From: Myxococcales bacterium
Lineage (GTDB): Bacteria; Myxococcota_A; Polyangia; Polyangiales; Houyiibacteriaceae
Reading direction: 5' to 3'
Length of the DNA stretch: 45,652 nt
Assembly: GCA_024640845.1 (NCBI GenBank)
Contig: JAHEEE010000029.1
Span: forward strand, 1-45,652
Part shown: positions 30,233 through 44,923 of the stretch, in pieces
Position numbering within the stretch: position 1 is the stretch's first letter
How the letters are laid out: each line of letters starts with the position of its first letter
The notes under the pieces: model-generated
What the model was told of the DNA's origin: nothing
Databases searched by the model: none
Seen by the model: the letters and a program-made list of their open reading frames with translations, nothing else
Made by a program: the position numbers and the translations under genes

Positions 30233-31036
30233 AAGTTTGCCGAGAAGTATGGCCCCTGGGCCGTGGTAACGGGCGCCTCGGCAGGGATTGGGACTGAGTA
30301 CGCGCTCCGTATCGCAGAGCGGGGCGTCAACGTCGTGTTGGTCGCGAGACGTCGCGATCGCCTCGAGGAGCTCGCCTCGACCATCGAAGACATGTATCGG
30401 GTGAAAGCGCGCGTCGCGCCGGCCGATCTCACCAGTCGTGATATCGTCGAAGTCTTACAACCGGCGATCGCAGACCTCGATGTTGGGCTCTTGGTCAACT
30501 GTGCGGGAATGGGAACTACAGGCCCCTTTCTCGATCAGGACCCAGGGATCCAAGAGGCGATGCTCAACCTCAACTGCCGCGCACCGGCGCTGCTGACCCA
30601 CGAGCTCGCACAAGGCATGAGAGAGCGTGGACGCGGTGGGGTGATTGTGGTCTCGTCGCTGAGTGGCTTCTGCGCGGCCCGCGGGATGACCAACTACAAC
30701 GCCACCAAGGCGTATGATCTGATTTTCGCCGAGGGGTTGGCGTCCGAGCTCAAGGCTCATGGCGTGGACGTGCAAGCGATGTGTCCAGGCGGGACGTACA
30801 CCGAATTCCAGAGGGTCGCCGGTCTCGAACCGAAGAACTTCGGTCCGCTTCAGCGATTGATGTTCACCACGCCCACTGCGGTCGTCGCCATGAGCTTGGC
30901 TACGCTAGGAGGCCGCGTGACGGTCGTCCAAGGTTGGATGAACCGGTTGCTCGTGATTTCGATGAAGCTGATGCCTCGGCGGATCTCGACGTGGGTCTTC
31001 GGCGCCTTCATGGAGCGGTTTTCGGCCGGTCACTAG
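30227..31036 (+). CDS. Short-chain dehydrogenase/reductase
   Basis: 269 residues. Classical SDR: cofactor loop TGASAGIG (about 14-21), NCAG, VVSSLSG with the catalytic Ser, and YNATK supplying Tyr and Lys. ARRRDRLEEL after strand 2 suggests NADP preference. The C-terminus carries a hydrophobic and basic stretch (LLVISMKLMPRRISTWVFG), possibly membrane-peripheral. It is the last gene of the plus-strand F420 unit, 41 bases after cofH, and its stop overlaps the cofC stop on the other strand. No role in F420 synthesis is known for such a protein; it may act with the LLM enzyme or be unrelated. Upstream extensions run into cofH. Confidence 0.88.
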   Translation: MSKFAEKYGPWAVVTGASAGIGTEYALRIAERGVNVVLVARRRDRLEELASTIEDMYRVKARVAPADLTSRDIVEVLQPAIADLDVGLLVNCAGMGTTGPFLDQDPGIQEAMLNLNCRAPALLTHELAQGMRERGRGGVIVVSSLSGFCAARGMTNYNATKAYDLIFAEGLASELKAHGVDVQAMCPGGTYTEFQRVAGLEPKNFGPLQRLMFTTPTAVVAMSLATLGGRVTVVQGWMNRLLVISMKLMPRRISTWVFGAFMERFSAGH

Positions 31037-31629
31037 CCGCGACGGAGCCGGGCAAGGTCGCGTGGGTGGTCGACGTCGAAGCTAATGCCGCTTCGGAGCT
31101 GCACGCTGACCGTTAGGCCGAGATCGCGCGCGAGATCGCGGTGCCGTTGGAGGCTGTCGTCGTGGCCGAGGCAGCTTGGCAGTACGGTCGGTGGCTTCAG
31201 TGCGATCAGGTTCGTGCCTCGCTGGAGGAGGTCTGGCACGAGCACGACGTCTGCTTCTTCGAGCTGGCGGCCGACGCTCTCGACGTCCTCGGTGGCGAGC
31301 TCCGGCAGGTCACTCATGCAGACCAAGACGCTGGTCGCGCCTCGCGCCTCGAGGTCCCCCAACGCCGCGTCCACGACCTCTGCGAGACCTTGGTTGCCTT
31401 CTGGGTCTTCGAGTGCCACCGCGCCCAAGCGCTCGGCGTGTTCGCGCGCCTCCTGTGAATCGCTGACTATGGCGATGCCATCGATGCTTGGCGACTCGCG
31501 CAACACCCGCACGACGTGCTCGAAGAGCTCGCGGGTGAACGCGGCACGCTCGCGCGGCGGCAGCACGTCGGACAACCGGGACTTACCCCGATCGAAACCC
31601 TTGACTGGTATCAATGCCCAACGGCTCAT
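31033..31629 (-). CDS. cofC: CofC/FbiD-type guanylyltransferase
   Basis: 198 residues of nucleotidyltransferase fold. [17 protein letters not shown] (about 7-23) is the substrate-activation loop of the CofC family, [11 protein letters not shown] (about 100-110) carries the metal-binding Asp, and [13 protein letters not shown] is another family block. It couples GTP with phospholactate, phosphoenolpyruvate or 3-phosphoglycerate, depending on the organism, to give the GDP donor used by CofD. The sequence does not let me tell which substrate is used. Last gene of the minus-strand F420 unit, overlapping the cofD stop by four bases. Confidence 0.9.
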
Positions 31630-32555
31630 TCGAGGCCTTCAGCGAGCTCGAGCAGCTTGCGGGCAAAGACTACCCGATCTTCGCGTGCTTGAATCAGGAT
31701 GTTCGTTTGCAGAACGGGATAGGGCGCCTCGAAGCCGTCGCCGGGGTGCACTGCGTAGCCGTCCAGCAGATCTCCATAGTGGTTCGCAACCGCCTTCGCG
31801 GAAGGGGCCTGCCCGGAAAGCTGCGGGATCATCGCTGCAAGCGGGCCCTTGACCGCTCGGCCGTCGATGATTGGGCTGACCGCCACAACCGGAGTTTCCT
31901 CGAGCGCCTGGCGCACGCCCTCCAACTCGAGGATCGGGTCGATCGAGACATACGGGTTGGACGGGCAAATCACGATGAGATCGGCCTTGTCCAGCGCATC
32001 GAGCGCTCGGGGCGAGGCTTTGCCGTCTCCGCCGTGCCGGACGGCCTTAACCTCGGGAACGCCGCGAGCCCGAACGAGCCACTCCTGGAAGGCCAGCTGC
32101 GTGCCCTCGGTCGTGACTATCGTGGTTGGTCGAGGCGCATCAGCCATCGGCAAGACGGGGCGGTCGACGTCGAGGCCGCGACACAGGTTTTGCGTGACCT
32201 CCGTCAAAGACGCGCCTCTAGATAGCGCCGCGGTTCGCTCGAGATGGGTGACGAGGTCTCGGTCTCCTAGTTGAAACCAGTCCTCGAGCCCCCGACGGCG
32301 GGCCTCCCGAAGCGCGTGGAACGTGTCTCCATCGATCCCCCAGCCGCGGTTTTCCGGCGATAGGTCGGCGAGCGTGTACATGATCGTGTCGAGGTCGGGA
32401 CTGATGTGGAGCCCCCAGTGCTCGAAATCGTCGCCGGTATTGACGATCACCTGGAGCGCACCTGCGGGGAGGGCACGGTCCAGTCCGTAGACGAGGCGCG
32501 CGCCCCCCACGCCTCCTGCGAGTGCAACCACGTTTCCGTTGAAGATCGTGCTCAT
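31626..32555 (-). CDS. cofD: CofD: FO transferase (2-phospho-L-lactate transferase family)
   Basis: 309 residues. The N-terminus [17 protein letters not shown] (9-25) is the glycine-rich signature of Cof[23 protein letters not shown] continues the nucleotide-binding region, and [14 protein letters not shown] is another conserved block. It transfers the phospho-moiety from the CofC product to FO, giving F420-0 or its dehydro form. The start overlaps the cofE stop by four bases and its stop overlaps cofC, so the genes form one transcript. Confidence 0.96.
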
Positions 32556-33367
32556 GCGTAGAGGTCGTCTTCAGGGTTCCGAAGGAGTGCCTTTGACGAC
32601 TCGAGAGAGCGGGGGAACTGCAGGCCGCGCACCAATGTCAGGGGGCGGCTCTCGTCGGCCTGCCCCGCAACGAGATCCGCCGCGGCGGCGATCGAGTCGG
32701 CCACCGCGGACTCGGTGGACTCGAGCACGCGACCATGGCGGTCTGATGCGCCTCGCCTATCCCAGACCGCCGGAAGTCCTGCGACGCCCAGGGCGAAGCC
32801 TACGGTCCCCCGACGAAACGGCCGCCCCCATGAATCGGTGATCACGACCGCGATATTGGCCGAATACTGCGCTCCGAGCGTGTCGCGAAGCGCCGCGGCG
32901 CTCGCATCCGGATCCTGCGGCAACGTCAGCACCCAGGGACCCGAGTCTGGCGGTGCGTTCCCCGGGGCAGCGTTGCTGGCATCGATGCCTGCGTTGGCGG
33001 ATACGAAGCCGAGCCGGTGGCGGACGATGAGGGCGCCCTTCGTCTTGCGTGAGATACCAAGGCTCTCACGAAGGATGAGCTCGATGAGCCGAGGGTCTTT
33101 GTCGACCTCCTCGGCGAGCGCACGAGCGCGGCCGTCGGGCGCGACCTTAGCGAGGTCGACAAAGCAGCCTTCCGCCCGCGATACGACCTTGCTTGCCAGC
33201 ACGATGACGTCGCCGTCACGCAGGTCGATCCCCGCGTGATCGAATGCCGCAACGACGATCTCGGACAAGTCGTCGCCTGACTCCACCGTGGGAACGCCGG
33301 GGATCGCGCGAACCACCAGCTCCGAGCCGACTCGGAAGTCGCTCGCAGCGGGTTCGCGCTCGGTCAC
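32552..33367 (-). CDS. cofE: Coenzyme F420-0:L-glutamate ligase (single-domain)
   Basis: 271 residues from GTG 33367, which overlaps the npdG stop (GTGA). A longer frame to 33574 lies inside npdG and reads as low-quality sequence. CofE adds L-glutamates to F420-0 using GTP. Motifs: [45 protein letters not shown] in two blocks, and [21 protein letters not shown]. There is no C-terminal nitroreductase-like domain, so it is the short archaeal-type CofE, not actinobacterial FbiB. If CofD makes a dehydro-F420 form, the FbiB-type reductase would have to be elsewhere. Confidence 0.94.
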
Positions 33368-34020
33368 TCCGACTCCGGGATGCCCGTGATGCGGATACCC
33401 GAGCCGACGCTCTTGTACCTGCGGTTGATGTGCAGCAGCACCGGCGTCAGAGACTCGAGGGCGACGGCGTTTTTGAGCACGCCCGCGTCCACACCGCGAA
33501 GCCCGAGGTCGGAGATGAGCGATATGACCGTGGCCCGGGCGTCTTTGTCGTCCCCGCAGACCAACACGTCGCAATCAAACGCATGATCCGGGTCGCTCAG
33601 ATGCTCGGAGCTGATGTGGTGAAGCGCAGCAACCAGACGGGCGTCGTCATTCAGGTAACCCCGCGCTTCGAGCGCGGCCGCCTCTCCCTTCGGGAGATGG
33701 ACCGAGCGAACCTTCGGCGGCTGAAGCGGGACGGTGATGTCGACGACGACCTTGTCGCCCACCTGATCCTTGATCGACTCGAATGTACCTTGGTGCGCGC
33801 TGTAGGGAACGGTCACGATGATGAGCTCGGCGTGGTTGCATGCTGCCACGTTGTCCCCACCCTGGAGCGTGACCCCGAACTCTTTGGCAAACTCCGCAGC
33901 CTTGGCGACGCCTTTGTCGCTCTGGCGTGAGCCAATGAACACGTCGTGCCCCGCCTTTGCCCAACGAACGCCGAGGCCGCGACCTTCGCGACCCGTGCCA
34001 CCTACGATTCCAATCTTCAT
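33364..34020 (-). CDS. npdG: NADPH:F420 oxidoreductase
   Basis: 218 residues. MKIGIVGGTGREGRGLGVRW begins with the GxGxxG-type nucleotide loop, and GSRQSDK after strand 2 would bind the NADP 2'-phosphate. LIIVTVPYSAHQG and VVVDITVPLQPP match the family (Fno/NpdG), as do ALHHISSEHLSD and VLVCGDDKDAR. It moves hydride between NADPH and F420, setting the reduced cofactor pool. A GAGGGG ribosome site precedes the start. It is directly upstream of cofE in the same operon, and 8 bases after the LLM gene. Confidence 0.94.
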   Translation of the reverse strand: MKIGIVGGTGREGRGLGVRWAKAGHDVFIGSRQSDKGVAKAAEFAKEFGVTLQGGDNVAACNHAELIIVTVPYSAHQGTFESIKDQVGDKVVVDITVPLQPPKVRSVHLPKGEAAALEARGYLNDDARLVAALHHISSEHLSDPDHAFDCDVLVCGDDKDARATVISLISDLGLRGVDAGVLKNAVALESLTPVLLHINRRYKSVGSGIRITGIPESE

Positions 34021-34027
34021 GTTCCCC

Positions 34028-35071
34028 TCACGAGTTGAGCTCGGCCATGAACCTCAATGTGTCCATGTCCTGAGAGCCGACCAGCATGGTGCCAACCGGC
34101 GAATCTTTCCAGCGCTGGAAACGATCGCGAATGCGGTCCTTCGAGCCGACCAAGTAGAGGGCATCGACCATCTCGTCCGGCACGGCGGCCACCGCCTCAT
34201 TGCGTTTGCCGTCGAGGAAGAGGTCCTGAACCTTCTCACAGGCTTCCTCGAAACCAACGAGGCTCAAATAGTCCTTGTAGAAGTTCTTCTTCTTCGAGCC
34301 CATCCCCCCGATGTAGAGCGCAAGCTGCATCTTGCAAGGCAACATCGCGTGCTCGGGATCTCCGATGATCACCACTACTGTGGGCGCAATGTCGAAGCTG
34401 TCGATGCCCTTGTCCTTGCCGGCCTTTTCGAACCCTTCCTCGAAGTTCTTCATCAGCACCTCGGGGCGTTCCGGGTGCATGCAAGTGAGGAGGCACCCAT
34501 CCGCGATCTCGGCCGACATGGCTTGCGACTTCGGCGCCATGGAGCCCGTGTAGACCGGGATGTCGGGGCGGCTGCGAATCATGCTTCGAAGGGGCTTGCC
34601 TTGGCCGCTCGATCCTTCTCCGCGGTACGGGATCTGATAGCGCACGCCGTCGAACTCGAGCGGCGCCTGGCGTGCAAAGATTTGCTTCACGATCGTGACG
34701 TACTCGCGGAGCCACGTGAGCGACTTGTTGAACGGGACGCCGTGCCATCCCTCGACGACCTGCGGTCCAGATGTTCCGAGGCCCATGATGAAGCGTCCGT
34801 TCGACAGGATGTCCATCGTCATTGCGGTCATCGCTGCGTTTGCCGGCGACCGGCCTGGCAGTTGCATGATCCCGGTTCCGAGCTTGATCGTCGACGTCTG
34901 GCTGCCTACCCAAGCAAGCGGTGTGATTGCGTCGTTGCCCCAGGACTCGGCCGTCCAAATCGAGTCGTACCCGAGTCGCTCGACCTCTCCGATCTTCTCC
35001 ATGTTCACCAGGTCATGCACAGTCGTATTCAACTGCGGACCGGCGTATCCAATCGACAAACCGAGCTTCAT
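34028..35071 (-). CDS. LLM class F420-dependent oxidoreductase
   Basis: 347 residues. I chose ATG 35071 because AAGGAG lies about seven bases upstream; the frame could begin two codons earlier at TTG. Luciferase-like barrel pattern: GEVERLGYDSIWTAESWGND (about 28-47), KLGTGIMQLPGRSPANAAM, GRFIMGLGTSGPQVVEGWHG and RPDIPVYTGSMAPKSQAMSAEIADG. The GTSGPQVVEGWHG region is typical of actinobacterial F420-dependent oxidoreductases. It heads the minus-strand F420 unit (LLM, npdG, cofE, cofD, cofC). The substrate is unknown. It is not a close copy of the LLM protein at 26897-27772, which is about 55 residues shorter. Confidence 0.9.
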   Translation of the reverse strand: MKLGLSIGYAGPQLNTTVHDLVNMEKIGEVERLGYDSIWTAESWGNDAITPLAWVGSQTSTIKLGTGIMQLPGRSPANAAMTAMTMDILSNGRFIMGLGTSGPQVVEGWHGVPFNKSLTWLREYVTIVKQIFARQAPLEFDGVRYQIPYRGEGSSGQGKPLRSMIRSRPDIPVYTGSMAPKSQAMSAEIADGCLLTCMHPERPEVLMKNFEEGFEKAGKDKGIDSFDIAPTVVVIIGDPEHAMLPCKMQLALYIGGMGSKKKNFYKDYLSLVGFEEACEKVQDLFLDGKRNEAVAAVPDEMVDALYLVGSKDRIRDRFQRWKDSPVGTMLVGSQDMDTLRFMAELNS

Positions 35072-36140: not shown

Positions 36141-36152
36141 GCGCCTAGGCGC
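36141..36152. repeat. Perfect 12-bp palindrome at a convergent junction
   Basis: GCGCCTAGGCGC begins right after the stop codon of the extended SDR and includes the stop codon of the minus-strand reductase (36145-36147). Having no loop, it is a poor terminator hairpin. It could be a protein-binding site or chance. Confidence 0.3.
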
Positions 36153-36927
36153 GTTGGCTCGACACCGACAACACCTCACCGGTCATATACGAGCTGTAGT
36201 CGCTCGCGAGGAACACCATCACGTTGGAGATCTCCCACGGCTCGGCCCCCCGTCCGAAGGCTTCACGTTTCTCGAGCTCCTCGAGCAAGCCAGGCGGCGT
36301 AACCTTTGCGAGGAACGGGTGCATCGCGAGTGACGGTGCGACGCAATTCACGCGTACGTTGGCTGCGGCCGCCTCGATCGCCGAGCATCGCGTGAGCGCC
36401 ATCACACCGGCCTTGGCCGCCGCGTAGTGCGCTTGGCCTTCCTGCGCTCGCCAACCGAGCACCGATGCGTTGTTGACGATGGCACCACTGCCGCGTGGCA
36501 TCATGTGTTTCAGGGCGGCGCGGGTGCATCGGAAGCAACCGTTCAGCGTCACGTCGAGCACGGCGTTCCATTGCTCGTCCGTCATGTCGACGATCTTCGA
36601 GTAGCCGCCTAGGCCGGCATTGTTCATCAGGATGTCGACGTGCCCCAGCTTTTCGATCGCGTGCTCGAACATGCCCTGTACTTCGTTTTCCTTGGTGACG
36701 TTGCACAGCACCGTGTCGGGGCGCTTGCCGGTTTCTGCTTCGATCTTTTCGGCGGCTTCTCCAAGACGTCGCTCGTGAATGTCGCTGATGACGAGTCCGG
36801 CGGCGCCTTCTTCGAAGCAGCGAACGGAAGTAGCGAACCCGATCCCAGTGCCTGCGGCGGCGGTGACCAAGACGGTCTTACCTTCGAGCAGCCCGTGGCC
36901 GCCAACGTACCTTGGTGTGCTGCTCAT
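36145..36927 (-). CDS. ipdF: SDR closely resembling IpdF, a steroid ring C/D degradation reductase
   Basis: 260 residues from ATG 36927, which overlaps the upstream acyl-CoA dehydrogenase stop (ATGA), with AAAGGA before it. SDR motifs: VTAAAGTGIG (loop), NNAGLGGYSK, NNASVLGWRAQ (Ser) and HYAAAKAGVMALTRCSAIEAA (Tyr and Lys). The GGHGLLEGK lead-in, DIHERRLGEAAEKI, and the ending FLASDYSSYMTGEVLSVSSQ recall mycobacterial Rv3559c (IpdF). IpdF acts on the CoA thioester left after the steroid C/D rings are partly degraded. The identity comes from remembered family sequence, not from a search. Downstream of the FadE30-like gene, as in Mycobacterium. Confidence 0.75.
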   Translation of the reverse strand: MSSTPRYVGGHGLLEGKTVLVTAAAGTGIGFATSVRCFEEGAAGLVISDIHERRLGEAAEKIEAETGKRPDTVLCNVTKENEVQGMFEHAIEKLGHVDILMNNAGLGGYSKIVDMTDEQWNAVLDVTLNGCFRCTRAALKHMMPRGSGAIVNNASVLGWRAQEGQAHYAAAKAGVMALTRCSAIEAAAANVRVNCVAPSLAMHPFLAKVTPPGLLEELEKREAFGRGAEPWEISNVMVFLASDYSSYMTGEVLSVSSQRA

Positions 36928-38099
36928 CGTGGTTCCTTTGGAAGGCCGAGTCCCCGCTCGCCGATGATGTTGCGCTGAATCTGGTTCGAGCCCGCGTAGA
37001 TGGTGTCGGCCCTCGCGAACAGATACCACTTCTGCATGCGTGTGAGCTCGTACGGAGCCCCGTGGAGGATCTCTGCCTCCGGACCGAGAATGTCCATGGC
37101 GAGCTTGCCGAGGTCGCGATGCCAGTTCGACCAATAAAGCTTGCTGATCAGAGCTTCGCGATTCAGGTCGGCACCTTGATGCTCCAGCATGCGAAGCGCG
37201 TTGACCCGCATCACCTTCAGTCCGATCCATGCGTGGGCGAGGCGTTGCCGGATGATTGGGTCCTTAGCTGCTCCGCTCTTCTTGGCGGCTTCCACAACCT
37301 GTTCGAACTCCTGCTTGAAGAGATACTGCTGTCCCAGCGTCGAGGCTCCTCGCTCGAACGCAAGCGTCCCCATGGCGACTTTCCATCCATTGTTGACGCC
37401 GCCGACGACATGGTCCTTCTGCGCTTTCGCGCCGTCGAAGAAGACCTCCGCGAACTCGGCGCTCCCGCCCATCTGTTTGATTGGACGGACCTCGATTCCG
37501 TCCTGCTTCATCGGGACGAGGATGTAGCTGATCCCGCGGTGCTTGGGCGCCTCCGGATCGGTGCGACACAACACGAAGCACCAATCCGAGTATTGCGCTC
37601 CCGAGGTCCAGATCTTTTGGCCCTCGATGATCCATTCATCCCCCGCGAGCGTCGCCTTGGTTTGCACGTTCGCCAGATCCGAACCCGCGCCCGGCTCCGA
37701 GTACCCCTGACACCAGATCTCGTCGCCGGATACGATGGGTGGCAGGAACCTCTGCTGCTGCTCTGGTGATCCAAAGTGAATCAATGTCGGTCCGAGCAGG
37801 GTCTCACCGATGTGGCCTACGTTGCCCGGTCCGTTCGCGCGAACGTACTCCTCGTTGAAGATCGCCTCTTCTTTGATGGAGCATCCGCGCCCGCCGAACT
37901 CCTTTGGCCAGCCGATGCAATTCCAGCCGGCGGCCCCCATGGCTTTTCCCCAGGCGATTCGTTCCTCGATGTACGAGTCCTGATCTCCCGAGGCGCCCCG
38001 GCCTTGGAGGTCTTTGTAAGGGCCGTTTAGCTGCTCTTCCAGCCAGGCGCGTGCCGCACGTTGGAATGCCCGTTCTGCCTCGTTGAGCTGTAGCTCCAT
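36924..38099 (-). CDS. Acyl-CoA dehydrogenase, FadE30-like
   Basis: 391 residues from ATG 38099, which shares one base with the upstream gene's stop (TGATG); GTG 38102 is an equal choice. Acyl-CoA dehydrogenase motifs: WCQGYSEPGAGSDLANV (FAD/substrate loop), IEGQKIWTSGAQYSDWCF, FERGASTLGQQ and the C-terminal ADTIYAGSNQIQRNIIGERGLGLP. The order and wording (LGPTLIHFGSPEQQQRFLP, NWHRDLGKLAMDILG) recall mycobacterial FadE30 (Rv3560c), which acts in steroid ring C/D catabolism. It is immediately upstream of the ipdF-like gene. It may be a subunit of a heteromeric enzyme with the other acyl-CoA dehydrogenase. Confidence 0.85.
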   Translation of the reverse strand: MELQLNEAERAFQRAARAWLEEQLNGPYKDLQGRGASGDQDSYIEERIAWGKAMGAAGWNCIGWPKEFGGRGCSIKEEAIFNEEYVRANGPGNVGHIGETLLGPTLIHFGSPEQQQRFLPPIVSGDEIWCQGYSEPGAGSDLANVQTKATLAGDEWIIEGQKIWTSGAQYSDWCFVLCRTDPEAPKHRGISYILVPMKQDGIEVRPIKQMGGSAEFAEVFFDGAKAQKDHVVGGVNNGWKVAMGTLAFERGASTLGQQYLFKQEFEQVVEAAKKSGAAKDPIIRQRLAHAWIGLKVMRVNALRMLEHQGADLNREALISKLYWSNWHRDLGKLAMDILGPEAEILHGAPYELTRMQKWYLFARADTIYAGSNQIQRNIIGERGLGLPKEPR

Positions 38100-39238
38100 C
38101 ACAACCCCATGCGCATCGCGACTCGCTCGCGGTGAAAGGAGGGTTCGCCGAGAAGCACTTCACTTGCCTTGGCGCGCTTCAAGTACAGGTGGGCGGGGTG
38201 CTCCCAAGTAAAACCGATGCCGCCGTGGATTTGTATGTTCTCCGCGGCGCAGTGGAAGAACGTGTCGGAGCAGAAGGCCTTGGCGCTCGATGCGACTTCG
38301 CCCAAGTCGACTTCCCCTTGGCCCGCGACGGCGCTCGCGTAAAACGCCGCCGACCGAGCCGACTCGACCATGGTGAGCATGTCCGCGCATTTGTGTTTGA
38401 TCGCCTGAAAAGAACCAATCGGCCTTCCAAATTGTTTCCGAACCTTCGCGTACTCGACCGACATGTCGAGGCACATCTCGGCTGCACCCACCTGCTCGGC
38501 GGCGAGTGCGATGCGAGCGAGGTCCAGGGTGCGCTCGCACAACTCCCAACCGCGGCCTTCCTCGCCGATGAGCGCGCCGGCGGGCACAACAACCCGATCG
38601 AGCGTGATGGCTGCAAGCTTGCGAGTTTGGTCCATCGAGGGCGTCCAGGTGCGTGTTACCCCCCGGGTATTTGCGGGCACCGCAAACACGCTGACCCCTT
38701 CAATGCCGCGGCTGTGTTCGGAGCGCGCCGCAACGAAAATGAGATCCGCAGTGTGACCGTCGATCACGTAGCGCTTGTCGCCACGAAGCACGTAGCCGTC
38801 GCCGGCGTGCTCGTAGGTAGCCCGGATTGCATCGGCTCCGTTCTCTCGCCCCTTTTCGGCGTAAGCCAGCGTGGCGGTCGTCTTGCCGGCCGCGATGGCC
38901 GAAAGATGTTGCTCCTTTTGAGCCTCATTGCCGCCGACGAGCAGAACGTTGGCTCCGAGGCAGATCGTCGCGAAAAACGGCGAGCAGAGAAGCGCGCGCC
39001 CCATTTCTTCCATCACCGGGTGTAGGTCGAGGTAGCTCATGCCGAGCCCATCATAGGCCTCGGGAATGGTGAGCGCGGTCCATGCGAGCTCTTCCGAGAG
39101 CTGCTCCCAGACCCTCGAGTCGTAGCCCTGCTCGGTCTCCATCGCGCTTCGGACGCGCGCCTCCGAAGACTCGCTCTGCAGGAACCGTCGCGCGGCTCGC
39201 CTCAGCTCGTCTTGTTGTTCCGAGAACGAAAAATCCAC
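38099..39238 (-). CDS. Acyl-CoA dehydrogenase, second subunit type
   Basis: 379 residues from GTG 39238, chosen because GAGGAG (39248-39253 on the plus strand as CTCCTC) lies nine bases upstream and the protein then begins DFSFSEQQDELRR, a typical family start. A 19-codon extension to 39295 overlaps the upstream gene. Motifs: LTIPEAYDGLGMSYLDL, ALLCSPFFATICLG, RGWELCERTLDLARIALAAEQ, VRKQFGRPIGSFQAIKH and QIHGGIGFTWEHPAHLYLKRA. This pattern is shared with actinobacterial FadE29/FadE33-like subunits that pair with a partner, as in heterotetrameric ChsE enzymes. Here the FadE30-like gene is the obvious candidate partner. Confidence 0.85.
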   Translation of the reverse strand: MDFSFSEQQDELRRAARRFLQSESSEARVRSAMETEQGYDSRVWEQLSEELAWTALTIPEAYDGLGMSYLDLHPVMEEMGRALLCSPFFATICLGANVLLVGGNEAQKEQHLSAIAAGKTTATLAYAEKGRENGADAIRATYEHAGDGYVLRGDKRYVIDGHTADLIFVAARSEHSRGIEGVSVFAVPANTRGVTRTWTPSMDQTRKLAAITLDRVVVPAGALIGEEGRGWELCERTLDLARIALAAEQVGAAEMCLDMSVEYAKVRKQFGRPIGSFQAIKHKCADMLTMVESARSAAFYASAVAGQGEVDLGEVASSAKAFCSDTFFHCAAENIQIHGGIGFTWEHPAHLYLKRAKASEVLLGEPSFHRERVAMRMGL

Positions 39239-39242
39239 TCGC

Positions 39243-40025
39243 TCACTCTCCTCGATTGACGCTTGCGGCGGAGAGGAATGCTGGTGTCTCGCCACCGCCG
39301 TGCAGCACTAGATTTGCGCCGCTCACGTACGCGGCGAGGGGCGAGGCGAAGAACATGCACGCTCCTGCAACGTCGCCTCCTGTGCCCATTCGGCGGAGCG
39401 GAACCGTCTCCGCGACACGCGCCATGCCTTCGGCGTCGCCGTAGTGAAGATGTGACTGCTCGGTTTGAATGAGCCCCGCCGAAATCACGTTCACGCGGAC
39501 CTTGGGCGCCCATTCGATTGCGAGCGTGCCGGTGAGGTTGATGAGACCCGCCTTGGCTGCGCCGTAGGCCGCCGTCCCTGGCGATGGGCGGATACCCGAC
39601 ACGCTCGCGATGTTGATGATCGACCCGCCGCTCGGTTGCTGCTGCATGACGCGATTGGCCTGCTGCGCGCAGTGAAGCGCAGATGTCAGGTTGAGCTGGA
39701 TCACCTTTTCCGAAAACCGTGGCGACACTGTCGCCGCGTCGGCAAAAGGCGCTCCGCCCGCATTGTTCACCAGTATGTCGAGCCTGCCGAGGGTCGCGAT
39801 CACGGTATCGATCAGTCGCTCGACTTGTTCTGCGTCCCGTACATCTGCATTAAAGAACGTCGCGATCGCGCCGCCTACGCTCGGTAGGTCGTGTGGTTCC
39901 TTGCGTCCGCAGATCGCGACCTCCGCCCCGGCCGCGAGAAAGGCTTCTGCAATGCCGCGACCGATGCCCCGGCTCCCGCCAGTGACGAGCACGGCCTGAC
40001 CGCTGAAGTCGAGAGAGTTGTTCAT
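39243..40025 (-). CDS. SDR family oxidoreductase
   Basis: 260 residues from ATG 40025, overlapping the upstream SDR stop by four bases. Motifs: VTGGSRGIGRG, NNAGGAPFADA, INIASVSGIRPSPGTAAYGAAKAG in two parts, giving the catalytic Ser, Tyr and Lys. The C-terminus GANLVLHGGGETPAF ends with the family GG motif. ICGRKEP after strand 2 suggests an NADP or NAD reader without clear preference. It is one of two neighbouring SDRs in the catabolic operon; its substrate is probably a hydroxy- or ketoacyl-CoA, by context only. Confidence 0.88.
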   Translation of the reverse strand: MNNSLDFSGQAVLVTGGSRGIGRGIAEAFLAAGAEVAICGRKEPHDLPSVGGAIATFFNADVRDAEQVERLIDTVIATLGRLDILVNNAGGAPFADAATVSPRFSEKVIQLNLTSALHCAQQANRVMQQQPSGGSIINIASVSGIRPSPGTAAYGAAKAGLINLTGTLAIEWAPKVRVNVISAGLIQTEQSHLHYGDAEGMARVAETVPLRRMGTGGDVAGACMFFASPLAAYVSGANLVLHGGGETPAFLSAASVNRGE

Positions 40026-40927
40026 GTTCCGTACACTTTCACCAGCGGTTGGGCTTTGGAGAGAAGGGCTTCGACTGCGGGGCCGACCTCGGCCGCATCC
40101 CAACGTTTGCCGATGTCGACTGTCTGTTCGCGGCGGTACCCGTCGAAGACGCTAATGGTTCCGCCGAAGACCTCCCAGACACGCCCAGTGGCCTCGCGCG
40201 ATTGCGAGCTCGCGAGCCAGGCGACGAATGGCGAGACGTTTGCCGGGTCGTTTTCGTCGAATCCATGATCCGGCGCTTTCATCGAATCGCCAAATGCGCC
40301 TTCGGTCATCCGGGTCCGCGCGATCGGGCATATCGCGTTCGCGGTGACCCCATACCGGCCGAGCTCGGCCGCCTGCACGAGGGTCAGGGTAGCGATGCCG
40401 CCTTTCGCGGCCGAGTAACTCGATTGCCCGACGCTGCCGAGCACGCCGGCACCGGAGCTGGTGTTGATGATGCGCGCATCGACCTGCTCTCCGGCCTTGA
40501 CCCGACCGCGCCAGTAGGCGGCCGCGTGGCGTGCGATACAGAAGTGGCCTTTCAAGTGCACGCGGATGACGGCGTCCCACTCCTCTTCACTGCAACTCAC
40601 GAACATCCGGTCGCGGACGAAGCCGGCGTTGTTGACCACCACGTCGAGACCGCCAAACGCATCGATCGTCTGACGGACCAGGGCTTCGGTTTGTCCCCAG
40701 TCGGCAACGTCCGCCCCATTTGCAACTGCTTCGCCGCCCATGTCGAGAATCGCCCGAACGACCTCGTCCGCGGGACCGGTGCCTCCGCCTTCGCCGCTAT
40801 TGCTGACGCCCAAGTCGTTCACGACGACCTTTGCGCCCTGCCGCGCAAGCTCGAGCGCGTGCTCACGGCCGATGCCGCGGCCTGCGCCCGTTACGATTGC
40901 TACCCGTCCTTCACAAATGCCAGTCAT
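40022..40927 (-). CDS. SDR resembling mycobacterial Rv3548c (cholesterol-regulon type)
   Basis: 301 residues. TGAGRGIGREHALELARQGAKVVVNDLG matches the MFE-2-like SDRs that oxidise hydroxyacyl-CoAs. Asp/Leu after strand 2 fits NAD. The catalytic block reads INTSSGAGVLGSVGQSSYSAAKGG (in two parts), then YGVTANAICPIARTRMTEG. VRDRMFVSCSEEEWDAVIRVHLKGHF and the C-terminal ALLSKAQPLVKVYGT recall Rv3548c, from the mycobacterial steroid cluster. It lies three bases after the MDR gene and overlaps the next SDR. The match is recalled, not searched. Confidence 0.85.
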   Translation of the reverse strand: MTGICEGRVAIVTGAGRGIGREHALELARQGAKVVVNDLGVSNSGEGGGTGPADEVVRAILDMGGEAVANGADVADWGQTEALVRQTIDAFGGLDVVVNNAGFVRDRMFVSCSEEEWDAVIRVHLKGHFCIARHAAAYWRGRVKAGEQVDARIINTSSGAGVLGSVGQSSYSAAKGGIATLTLVQAAELGRYGVTANAICPIARTRMTEGAFGDSMKAPDHGFDENDPANVSPFVAWLASSQSREATGRVWEVFGGTISVFDGYRREQTVDIGKRWDAAEVGPAVEALLSKAQPLVKVYGT

Positions 40928-40930
40928 CGT

Positions 40931-41953
40931 CTAAACCTCTGGGTCGGCCAACTTGACCATGAGCTTGCCTCGGTGGTCTCCACGGAAAAGTCGAAGAAAG
41001 AGCGACGGGGCCTGGTCGATCCCTTCGACGACTTCGTCGCGATAGTGAAGCTTACCCTCGCGAATCCAATGTGCGAGGGCGATGCGCGCTTCTTCGTAAC
41101 GGCGCGCGAAATCCAGGGTCGTGAAGCCCTCCATCCGGGCGCTCTTGGCCAGCAGTTGGAGGTAATTGCTCGGGCCTGGCGGCGGCTCGGTCGCGTTGAT
41201 CTGCGAGATCGCACCGCAGAGTACAACACGCGCCCGCCGATTCAGGCGAGTGAGCACCGTGTTGAGAATCTCGCCGCCAACGCTATCGAAGAACACGTCG
41301 ACGCCATTTGGGCAAAGCTTCTTGAGAGCGAACCTTAGATCGGTCTTCTTGTAGTTCAGCGCACTGTGGTAGCCAAGCTCGCCGGTGAGCCACGCACATT
41401 TCTCGTCGCTTCCCGTGAGCCCGACGGCACGGCAACCTTTGATCCGAGCGATCTGGCCGGCGATCGATCCGACACCACCTGCGGCAGCGGACACGAGCAC
41501 AGTCTCGCCTTCCTTGGGTCGACCGACTTCCAACAGGCCGAAGTAAGCCGTCAGCCCATTGCCGCCGAGCACGCTGAGCATCGACTGCAAAGGAATGCCT
41601 TCTATCCTCTCGACCTTGCCATGGAGCTGGCCTGCCGGAACCACGCTGAACGATTCCCAGGTGCCGAGCGCCTGAACGATCTGCCCGACGGGCCAGCCAT
41701 CCGCGTTGGACTCGACGATTTGTGAGAGCGTGCCGCTGCGGATCGGCGCTCCGATCTGGATGGGGGGCAGATACGACTTCGCTTCGCTCATCCATCCGCG
41801 TATCGCGGGGTCGATCGAGAGATAGAGGTTCTTGAGGAGCACTTCACCCGGCCCGGGCGACGCCACAGGGCCCTCGCTGGCCTCGAAATCGTCGGCTCGT
41901 GGCACCCCGACCGGCCGCTTACTCAACAAAATCTGCCTATTCAAGTGCTTCAC
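40931..41953 (-). CDS. NADP-dependent MDR oxidoreductase (PTGR/CurA-like)
   Basis: 340 residues from GTG 41953, with GGAG five bases upstream. Zinc-independent medium-chain reductase: YLSIDPAIRGWMSE near the start, GGNGLTAYFGLLEVGRPKEGETVLVSAAAGGVGSIAGQ in two parts (AxxGxxG nucleotide loop) and VFFDSVGGEILN. These match alkenal/one double-bond reductases such as leukotriene B4 dehydrogenase and CurA. It is the first gene of the six-gene catabolic operon and directly downstream of the KstR-like site. The likely role is NADPH reduction of an unsaturated ketone or enoyl intermediate. Confidence 0.88.
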   Translation of the reverse strand: MKHLNRQILLSKRPVGVPRADDFEASEGPVASPGPGEVLLKNLYLSIDPAIRGWMSEAKSYLPPIQIGAPIRSGTLSQIVESNADGWPVGQIVQALGTWESFSVVPAGQLHGKVERIEGIPLQSMLSVLGGNGLTAYFGLLEVGRPKEGETVLVSAAAGGVGSIAGQIARIKGCRAVGLTGSDEKCAWLTGELGYHSALNYKKTDLRFALKKLCPNGVDVFFDSVGGEILNTVLTRLNRRARVVLCGAISQINATEPPPGPSNYLQLLAKSARMEGFTTLDFARRYEEARIALAHWIREGKLHYRDEVVEGIDQAPSLFLRLFRGDHRGKLMVKLADPEV

Positions 41954-41971
41954 GGGGCTCCGCCGCTAGAC

Positions 41972-41985
41972 TGAAACACGTTTCA
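41972..41985. promoter_or_regulatory. KstR-like operator upstream of the catabolic operon
   Basis: TGAAACACGTTTCA: perfect 6-bp inverted arms TGAAAC/GTTTCA around AC. It satisfies every fixed position of the published KstR consensus TnnAACnnGTTnnA (mycobacterial cholesterol repressor). It lies 18 bases upstream of the MDR start codon, in the only intergenic gap (72 bases) of this run. On the minus strand TTGCAA (41990-41995) could be its -35 element. TetR-family repressors other than KstR can bind similar palindromes, and no regulator gene is in the window. Confidence 0.5.
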
Positions 41986-43249: not shown

Positions 43250-44923
43250 TCACTCCTCGATGAACATCGGGTTGCGCGCATCGCGCAGCACATCCTTTAG
43301 CACCTTTCCGGTCGCGTTGCGGGGAAGGGGTGCGTTCCGACGCTCCCAAACCGTTGGGACCTTGTAGTACGCTAGAGTCTCGGCGACCCAACTGCGGAGT
43401 CCTTCGTCGGAGACGTCCCGGTCCGCGTGGAAGACGACGATCGCCTTCACCTCTTGTCCGAGCTCTTCGTGATCGATACCGATGACGGCGGCTTCTGCGA
43501 TATGCGGGTGCGCCTCGAGTCGTTGCTCGATTTCGAAAGGGTAGACGTTTTCGCCACCACGGAGGATCAAGTCGCGCTTCCGAGAGGCGATGTAGAGCTT
43601 GCCGTTTTCGAGATGACCCACGTCGCCCGTGCTGAGCCAACCGCCTGGCTTGATGGCGGCGTCCGTTGCCTCGGGGTCGTCCCAGTACCCCTGCATCACG
43701 AGCGGACCACGAAGATGGATCTCGCCTTCTTCGCCGTCGGGCAACGGCTGGTCAAGCTCGTCGCGAATCTCGATATCGACAATCGGGACGGGGCGGCCGA
43801 CGGAAGCGGGATCGTCGGCGAGCTCGTGGCCGGCGTTGAGCGTACCGAAGGCCGTGCCCTCCGTGAGACCGTAGCCCACCCCCATGGTGTGGCTACACTG
43901 CGGAAAGAGGTCGCGGGCTTTCTCGATAAGGGGCGGCGGGATGGGCGAACCGCCGCCACCAACGGAGCGGAAAGAGCTGAGGTCGTACTCGCCGACCCTT
44001 GGGTGGTTGAGCAGCCGGTGAAGGACGGTCGCCGTATAGCCCCAGCCGGTCACCTTCTCGCTTTCGATCAGGCCGAGCGCCGTTTCGGGATCGAAACGGC
44101 CCATGGGCCACACGGTCTTCGCCCCCGCAGCCAAGGCGGTGACTGCGCCACAGTGAAGCCCCGAGACGTGAAAAAGCGGGCTCGTCACCAACACGCTGTT
44201 CGGAAGCTGAGGCAGGTCGGCCTGCTTTGGGTTCGCCATCATCAGCCTTGCGCCGTGGAAGAAGCTGACCATGACCATGTTGGTGACGTTCGCGTGCGTA
44301 TGAACCACGCCTTTTGCGCGACCAGTCGTGCCGCTGGTGTACAAGATGATCGCGGGGTCGCTTTCCGCGATCGGCTGGGTCGGAAGCTTGGCGTCTGGAT
44401 AGGCCTCGAGGAGAGAGTCGAAGTCGTCTTCGATGATGAGCATGGGCACGCCGAGATCAGCGGTGATGCGGGCGGCCCGTTTTCGGTCTGCGAGGACGAG
44501 CTTTGGTCGGCTGTTGGCGACGGCGTAGCGGATCTCGTCTTCGGTCCACCATCCGTTCAGACCGACGCAAATGGCGCCTGAGCTCACCGCGGCCCAGAAC
44601 GCGATGACCCATTCGGGGCAGTTCGCCGCTAGGATCGCTACTCGGTCGCCAGACTCGATCCCGAATCTGGCGCGGAATGCGGCTGCTGCGCTCGCCACGA
44701 GCCTCTCGTGCTCGGCAAACGTGTATCGGCGATCGCGCTCGCCATCGCGGAAGACCATGTACTCCGCCTCGCCGAACTCCCTTGCCCGCAACAGCACATC
44801 GCGCAACGATCGTGCGCGGTTCGCGAACATCCGGACCGGTGTCCCGGACGCTTCATGCTCCTCCAGCGCGAACGGTGCGCCTGGCGCCAGCAGCTGCGCT
44901 TCGATCGCCTCCAAGCGGCTCAT
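43250..44923 (-). CDS. AMP-forming acyl-CoA ligase (FadD-type)
   Basis: 557 residues from ATG 44923, which overlaps the small upstream gene's stop (ATGA). A 32-codon extension lies inside that gene. Adenylate-forming motifs: ILYTSGTTGRAKGVVHTH (about 200), GVGYGLTEGTAF, GGWLSTGDVGHLE and SRKRDLILRGGENVYPFEIE, with the adenylation Lys in PRNATGKVLKD near the C-terminus. It activates a carboxylic acid to acyl-CoA. The context (thiolase, dehydrogenases, SDRs) points to a lipid, steroid or aromatic-chain acid. FadD3 identity is not supported strongly enough to claim. Confidence 0.92.
   Translation of the reverse strand: MSRLEAIEAQLLAPGAPFALEEHEASGTPVRMFANRARSLRDVLLRAREFGEAEYMVFRDGERDRRYTFAEHERLVASAAAAFRARFGIESGDRVAILAANCPEWVIAFWAAVSSGAICVGLNGWWTEDEIRYAVANSRPKLVLADRKRAARITADLGVPMLIIEDDFDSLLEAYPDAKLPTQPIAESDPAIILYTSGTTGRAKGVVHTHANVTNMVMVSFFHGARLMMANPKQADLPQLPNSVLVTSPLFHVSGLHCGAVTALAAGAKTVWPMGRFDPETALGLIESEKVTGWGYTATVLHRLLNHPRVGEYDLSSFRSVGGGGSPIPPPLIEKARDLFPQCSHTMGVGYGLTEGTAFGTLNAGHELADDPASVGRPVPIVDIEIRDELDQPLPDGEEGEIHLRGPLVMQGYWDDPEATDAAIKPGGWLSTGDVGHLENGKLYIASRKRDLILRGGENVYPFEIEQRLEAHPHIAEAAVIGIDHEELGQEVKAIVVFHADRDVSDEGLRSWVAETLAYYKVPTVWERRNAPLPRNATGKVLKDVLRDARNPMFIEE

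Follow-up and report, generated by a model that had tools for sequence, protein, structure and literature searches.

The window (the whole stretch of 45,652 nt that was analysed) includes a leftward operon of six tightly packed genes (41953–36145) encoding an MDR-family oxidoreductase, two SDRs, two acyl-CoA dehydrogenases and a further SDR, and the palindrome TGAAACACGTTTCA, read as TGAAACGTGTTTCA on the reverse strand, precedes the first of these genes. The features are listed in Table 1. An initial annotation had described this palindrome, located at 41972–41985, as fitting all fixed bases of the KstR-type pattern TnnAACnnGTTnnA, 18 bases before the first operon gene and with no second full match among the intergenic gaps of that part of the window. 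The sequence and the coordinates were found to be exact, the distance to the GTG start at 41953 is 18 nt, and no other exact TnnAACnnGTTnnA match is present in the whole window. As 0.21 chance matches to TnnAACnnGTTnnA are expected in the window, and at least one was found in 19 of 100 shuffles, the window alone provides weak evidence and no proof of an operator.

Table 1. Features at and around the KstR-type palindrome (window coordinates)
Feature	Coordinates	Strand	Remarks
KstR-type operator	41972..41985	-	palindrome; retained in G026 and in all 12 same-genus orthologues
-35-like box TTGCAA	41990..41995	-	4 nt 5' of operator; TTGCA(A/G) in orthologues; promoter inferred
-10-like TCTAGC	41965..41970	-	tentative; immediately 3' of operator; TCTAAT/TCTAAG in some orthologues
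NADPH-dependent MDR-family oxidoreductase	40931..41953	-	GTG start; operon gene 1
SDR, PRK07791 family	40022..40927	-	461 bits, above cut-off; PDB relatives 17-beta-HSD4-like
SDR, PRK07856 family	39243..40025	-	above family cut-off
Acyl-CoA dehydrogenase, first of adjacent pair	38099..39142	-
Acyl-CoA dehydrogenase, second of pair	36924..38099	-	PDB best Tcur3483 (6wy9), then 4x28
SDR, PRK07831 family	36145..36927	-	above family cut-off; final operon gene
Thiolase, PRK07851	42026..43246	-	5' of operator, same strand
CasG-like steroid-24-oyl-CoA synthetase	43250..44923	-	660 bits vs cut-off 750

The same-genus orthologues of the first operon gene are 75–80% identical, and the operator lies at the same place in each; in G026, it also precedes the same gene. 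The 12 orthologues align with the MDR protein from residue 3–4 and have the same spacing region, in support of the GTG start. On the flanks of the operator, the 5' TTGCA(A/G) box is conserved in the orthologues and the 3' TCTA is mostly conserved. The location of the operator between the -35-like and -10-like boxes fits a repressor that blocks the promoter, with the -10-like assignment and the promoter tentative as the spacer is 19 nt.

A related arrangement was seen in genome G021 (L134:8425), where a ligase-thiolase-MDR run has the operator in front of it; the window has it between the thiolase and MDR genes. The operon layout is shifted around an operator that has been kept. As the operator in G021 heads the run that includes the thiolase gene, the thiolase gene in the window probably belongs to the regulon of the operator.

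The window also contains an F420 operon (31033–35071) encoding an LLM oxidoreductase, an F420-dependent NADP oxidoreductase, CofE, CofD and CofC. A perfect KstR-type operator was found in front of this operon in G016 and G018 only (L126:6323 and L221:8510), and a full operator was absent from this position in the window genome, G001, G012 and G007. The F420 operon was therefore rejected as a further target in the window, and the patchy distribution suggests that its operator was gained or lost recently.

Operator sites in the host genome and the genes behind them

The window is contig C132 of an assembly of 4.14 Mb in 145 contigs (95.6% complete). The loose consensus occurs at 31 places in the whole genome compared with 28 for a reversed control pattern, and is thus not enriched and uninformative as a scan. 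The tighter pattern TRRAACRYGTTYYA was found at 18 sites with none for the reversed control, which is a strong enrichment, and the tightened pattern TRRAACNNGTTYYA gave 19 sites versus 4. The form (TAG/TGA)AACRYGTT(CTA/TCA) matched 17 sites where ~0.06 would be expected from base composition. When one mismatch was allowed in the tight form, the signal was lost in the genome scan (46 versus 77 for the control). The genome scan proposed in the initial annotation was therefore uninformative with the loose consensus but productive with the tightened form, the sites of which lie mostly before steroid catabolic genes. As the tight patterns were defined after the matches in this genome were known, independent support comes from their enrichment in other genomes.

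Genes around each site were called with a codon-usage script, and the encoded proteins were then scanned against protein families. Sites were identified before genes for a kstD-type 3-ketosteroid dehydrogenase (ATG 18 nt from the site), KshA-type Rieske oxygenases (KshA_C) and an HsaD-like hydrolase, and before operons for HsaA-, HsaE-, HsaG- and HsaF-like proteins and for ChsH2-like and Ltp proteins. Genes of the kind targeted by KstR, for the sterol side chain and rings A/B, are thus represented by kstD, kshA, hsaA/E/F/G, hsaD, ltp and ChsH2, with several of the Hsa and KstD matches assigned to their best family, yet under the curated equivalog cut-offs. Placement of the site at C130:28562 inside a gene was rejected as an error of gene calling: kstD begins 18 nt downstream, in agreement with Nocardia kstD.

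Two longer operons were also found behind sites. One on contig C91 has the gene order SCP2, ChsH2-type, Ltp2-like, Ltp, FadD, KshA, TetR, and the other encodes EchA20-like, IpdA, IpdB and IpdC-like proteins, acyl-CoA dehydrogenases and a FadA6-like protein. The IpdA and IpdB products match solved actinobacterial CoA-transferase pairs (PDB 6co6 and 6con, which we take to be IpdAB) with 351 and 275 bits compared with 93 and 66 bits for the next family. The names EchA20, IpdC, FadA6, Ltp2 and FadD stand for PRK-numbered models and are in part presumed. Further sites precede a pair of acyl-CoA dehydrogenase genes, the first product being 49% identical to one encoded next to Nocardia kstR, as well as a thiolase-FadJ pair, a gene for a 618-aa FAD protein and a P450 gene. 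A few sites precede genes with no clear link to steroids (e.g. C27, C53 and one side of C89:78891), and the TAAAACGCGTTCCA place on C1, which is inside a gene, is probably a chance match.

A KstR-like TetR and its co-occurrence with the operator

The genome includes 25 TetR_N matches, and the candidate reader of the operator is the TetR encoded at C91:16677–17255 by the final gene of the operator-headed SCP2-to-KshA operon. The best PDB match of this protein is KstR over its full length (E 2e-21), with the next different protein at 5e-13. It is ~30% identical to Mtb KstR and was ranked first when Mtb KstR was used as a query against the TetRs of this genome (79.8 bits; runner-up 44.6). The sole NCBIfam match of the C91 TetR was NF033703 KstR (123 bits, E 7.5e-36), the top match to this family in the genome, where no protein passes the curated cut-off of 280 bits. 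As it falls under this cut-off, the C91 TetR represents a sister lineage of KstR and not a KstR equivalog. The initial annotation had made its reading dependent on a KstR-type TetR and had proposed a search for one near the ring-cleavage genes. Of its two refuting conditions, a motif not enriched before catabolic genes and the absence of a KstR-like TetR, neither applied, as the tightened motif is enriched and a relative of KstR is encoded within a steroid operon headed by the operator, although this relative scores below the curated KstR cut-off.

An AF2 model of the C91 TetR (pLDDT 92.7) was compared with known structures, and KstR entries, including DNA-bound ones, gave Z scores of 22–24 with rmsd values of 1.6–2.1. 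Rhodococcus 3bjb gave a Z score of 20.9, and all other TetRs gave 16.5 or less. In a tree, 41 non-actinobacterial homologues and the Acidimicrobiia homologues were joined with actinobacterial KstR, apart from 20 other TetRs of this genome (97/93, with the bootstrap not fully settled). The C91 TetR is therefore the closest to KstR among these TetRs by sequence, fold and tree. Autoregulation is also suggested by sequence, as in its own genus the operon in which the TetR gene comes last has an operator at its front, with gaps of no more than 27 nt.

The TetR gene and the counterpart of the window operon are ~20–22 kb apart on one contig in G016, G018, G001 and G012, and the region in G016 reads as a single cluster with five operators. 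The TetR gene and the operon fall on separate contigs of the window genome, for which a break in the assembly is the simplest explanation.

Homologues of the KstR-like TetR in named genomes assign the host to Myxococcota, among SG8_38-type MAGs (relatives of 'Myxococcales bacterium SG8_38'). Across 77 KstR-like loci (1.15 Mb), there were 88 tight operators compared with 1 match to the reversed control, and ~24 of the 77 have an operator no more than 170 nt 5' of the TetR gene. Of 289 genomes sampled across the class, 34 were operator-rich (at least 8 operators), and the TetR was encoded in 31 of these versus 24 of the 255 others (p 3e-23) and, when counted by genus, in 16 of 16 versus 15 of 129 (p 4e-13), both p-values being indicative only as genera are not fully independent. 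No TetR homologue was found in G013, G029 and G232, which are operator-rich genomes of this sample that are perhaps incomplete.

Seven members of the family with homologues that are 53–57% identical showed no operator enrichment. Direct repeats resembling GNGAACCGTC were seen ~160 nt 5' of the KstR-like gene in five operator-less members (L153, L156, L159, L162 and L168), and this subgroup may have switched its operator to the GNGAACCGTC-like element. Two genomes, G269 (53 sites versus 0 for the control) and G202 (39 versus 1), carry far more sites than the window genome, indicating that the regulons there may be much larger. Tight operators were also located ~1.2–1.3 kb 5' of the genes for Acidimicrobiia homologues (L204, L206 and L209).

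Proposed regulation and relation to known steroid regulators

The site at 41972 is very probably the operator at which the C91 KstR-like TetR represses the six-gene operon, which is of the steroid beta-oxidation type. As a probable dimer, the C91 TetR would occupy the palindrome, which lies between the -35-like and -10-like boxes, and keep the genes from 41953 to 36145 from being transcribed; a steroid acyl-CoA intermediate would probably release it. In the KstR system, the repressor binds its operator as a dimer and is released by ligands of the 3-oxo-cholestenoyl-CoA type. The host is also predicted to grow on steroids. The C91 TetR would also control ~15 further promoters, including that of its own operon, which would place the upper and lower steroid pathways in one regulon. 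Points against this reading are the low identity to Mtb KstR and the score under the NCBIfam cut-off, the seven family members with no operator enrichment, the three operator-rich genomes with no homologue, and the location of the TetR gene and the operon on different contigs.

A palindrome that arose by chance and has no regulatory role would be in keeping with the number of matches expected in the window and in its shuffles, and with the absence of enrichment of the loose consensus in the genome. However, the 18 versus 0 result for the tight form, the retention of the site in all 12 orthologues and the positions of the sites before steroid genes leave a chance match scarcely credible. The shared operator and similar TetR could also have come about by convergence, without common descent with the KstR system. 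This is hard to reconcile with a full-length match to KstR, a wide margin over every other TetR structure and a place in one clade with actinobacterial KstR (97/93, with the bootstrap not fully settled). Identity of only ~30% to Mtb KstR and the general likeness of TetR HTH regions are points in favour of convergence, but it is considered highly improbable given that the 14-bp operator and the target genes are also the same.

The operator may alternatively be real but read by another protein, such as the TetR encoded on contig C41 (L024) near kshA, which is the second KstR-family match in the genome (63 bits versus NF033703) and has two sites on its contig. However, the best PDB relative of the C41 TetR is Thermus FadR (3ang) and not KstR, none of the sites is at its own gene, and it falls outside the KstR clade in the tree. 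It is the C91 clade, not C41, in which many relatives have operators at their own promoters and which tracks the operator-rich genera. The C41 TetR was therefore rejected as the reader, and control by a protein other than the C91 TetR is thought to be very unlikely.

Work on KstR has treated it as the switch for cholesterol genes in mycobacteria and related bacteria, and the palindrome at the mycobacterial kstR promoter is TAGAAC(N2)GTTCTA (PMC1995591). The system predicted here shares with the KstR regulon of M. tuberculosis and M. smegmatis (Kendall 2007, PMC1995591) this 14-bp palindrome (TnnAACnnGTTnnA), a TetR reader whose fold matches that of the C91 TetR model, kstD, kshA, hsa and ltp targets and, as judged here by sequence, autoregulation. 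It differs in its Myxococcota host, in a regulator that is ~30% identical and under the curated cut-off, in the common use of a TGAAAC half-site beside TAGAAC, and in the position of the regulator gene, which is last in a target operon whereas mycobacterial kstR is divergent from fadE34.

In mycobacteria, the KstR regulon covers genes for uptake, the side chain and rings A/B, and the KstR2 regulon, with the motif AnCAAGnnCTTGnT, covers C/D-ring genes including ipdAB, ipdC and fadD3 (PMC3068626, PMC5380842, PMC6678751). Genes of the ipdAB, ipdC, echA20, fadA6 and fadD3 type from the KstR2 regulon (Kendall 2010, PMC3068626; Crowe 2017, PMC5380842) are also present here, but the ipdAB operon is behind a KstR-type operator. 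The KstR2 motif was not enriched in the genome (8 versus 7 for the control) and did not occur at the ipd or window loci, so that an organisation in two regulons, with a separate KstR2 motif on C/D-ring genes, was not found. An NCBIfam scan of 22 other TetRs of this genome brought up no KstR2-like model, though NCBIfam may hold none. As a KstR-type site heads the ipdAB operon and the KstR2 motif stays at the background level, a single regulon for the entire pathway is the simplest reading of the sequence. The view of the initial annotation that regulation as well as enzymes would be shared with mycobacteria is supported by the operator enrichment, the C91 TetR and the steroid gene set, with the qualification that the regulon differs in having ipdAB behind a KstR-type operator. 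On balance, it is more likely than not that a single repressor of the KstR lineage governs aerobic steroid breakdown as a whole, both upper and C/D-ring parts, across scattered Myxococcota lineages. In that case, the division between KstR and KstR2 in mycobacteria would represent a later or a separate development. TesR/TeiR of Comamonas testosteroni (reviewed in PMC6678751) controls the degradation of steroids by the 9,10-seco route, also in a Gram-negative organism, but, unlike the TetR here, is a LuxR-type activator with reported kinase activity and no reported KstR operator.

A survey of more than 8,000 genomes found steroid degradation in Actinobacteria and Proteobacteria only, and Myxococcota is absent from this published list of steroid-degrading phyla (PMC4810484). 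The main text of a metagenome survey (PMC5790920) does not include Myxococcota, Deltaproteobacteria or KstR. No earlier report of KstR or steroid degradation in Myxococcota was found in the open-access literature, to which the search, covering few subscription papers or preprints, was mostly directed, and novelty is therefore provisional. That this operator occurs in Myxococcota alongside a relative of its repressor and an extensive set of steroid genes suggests that both regulation and enzymes are shared between phyla, and the operator could serve as a sequence-only marker for uncultured steroid degraders. Homologues of the TetR are also encoded by cultured Nannocystis (L185, L194–L198), mostly with paired operators ~1.48–1.50 kb 5' of the gene, and Nannocystis is a possible experimental host for the KstR-like system.
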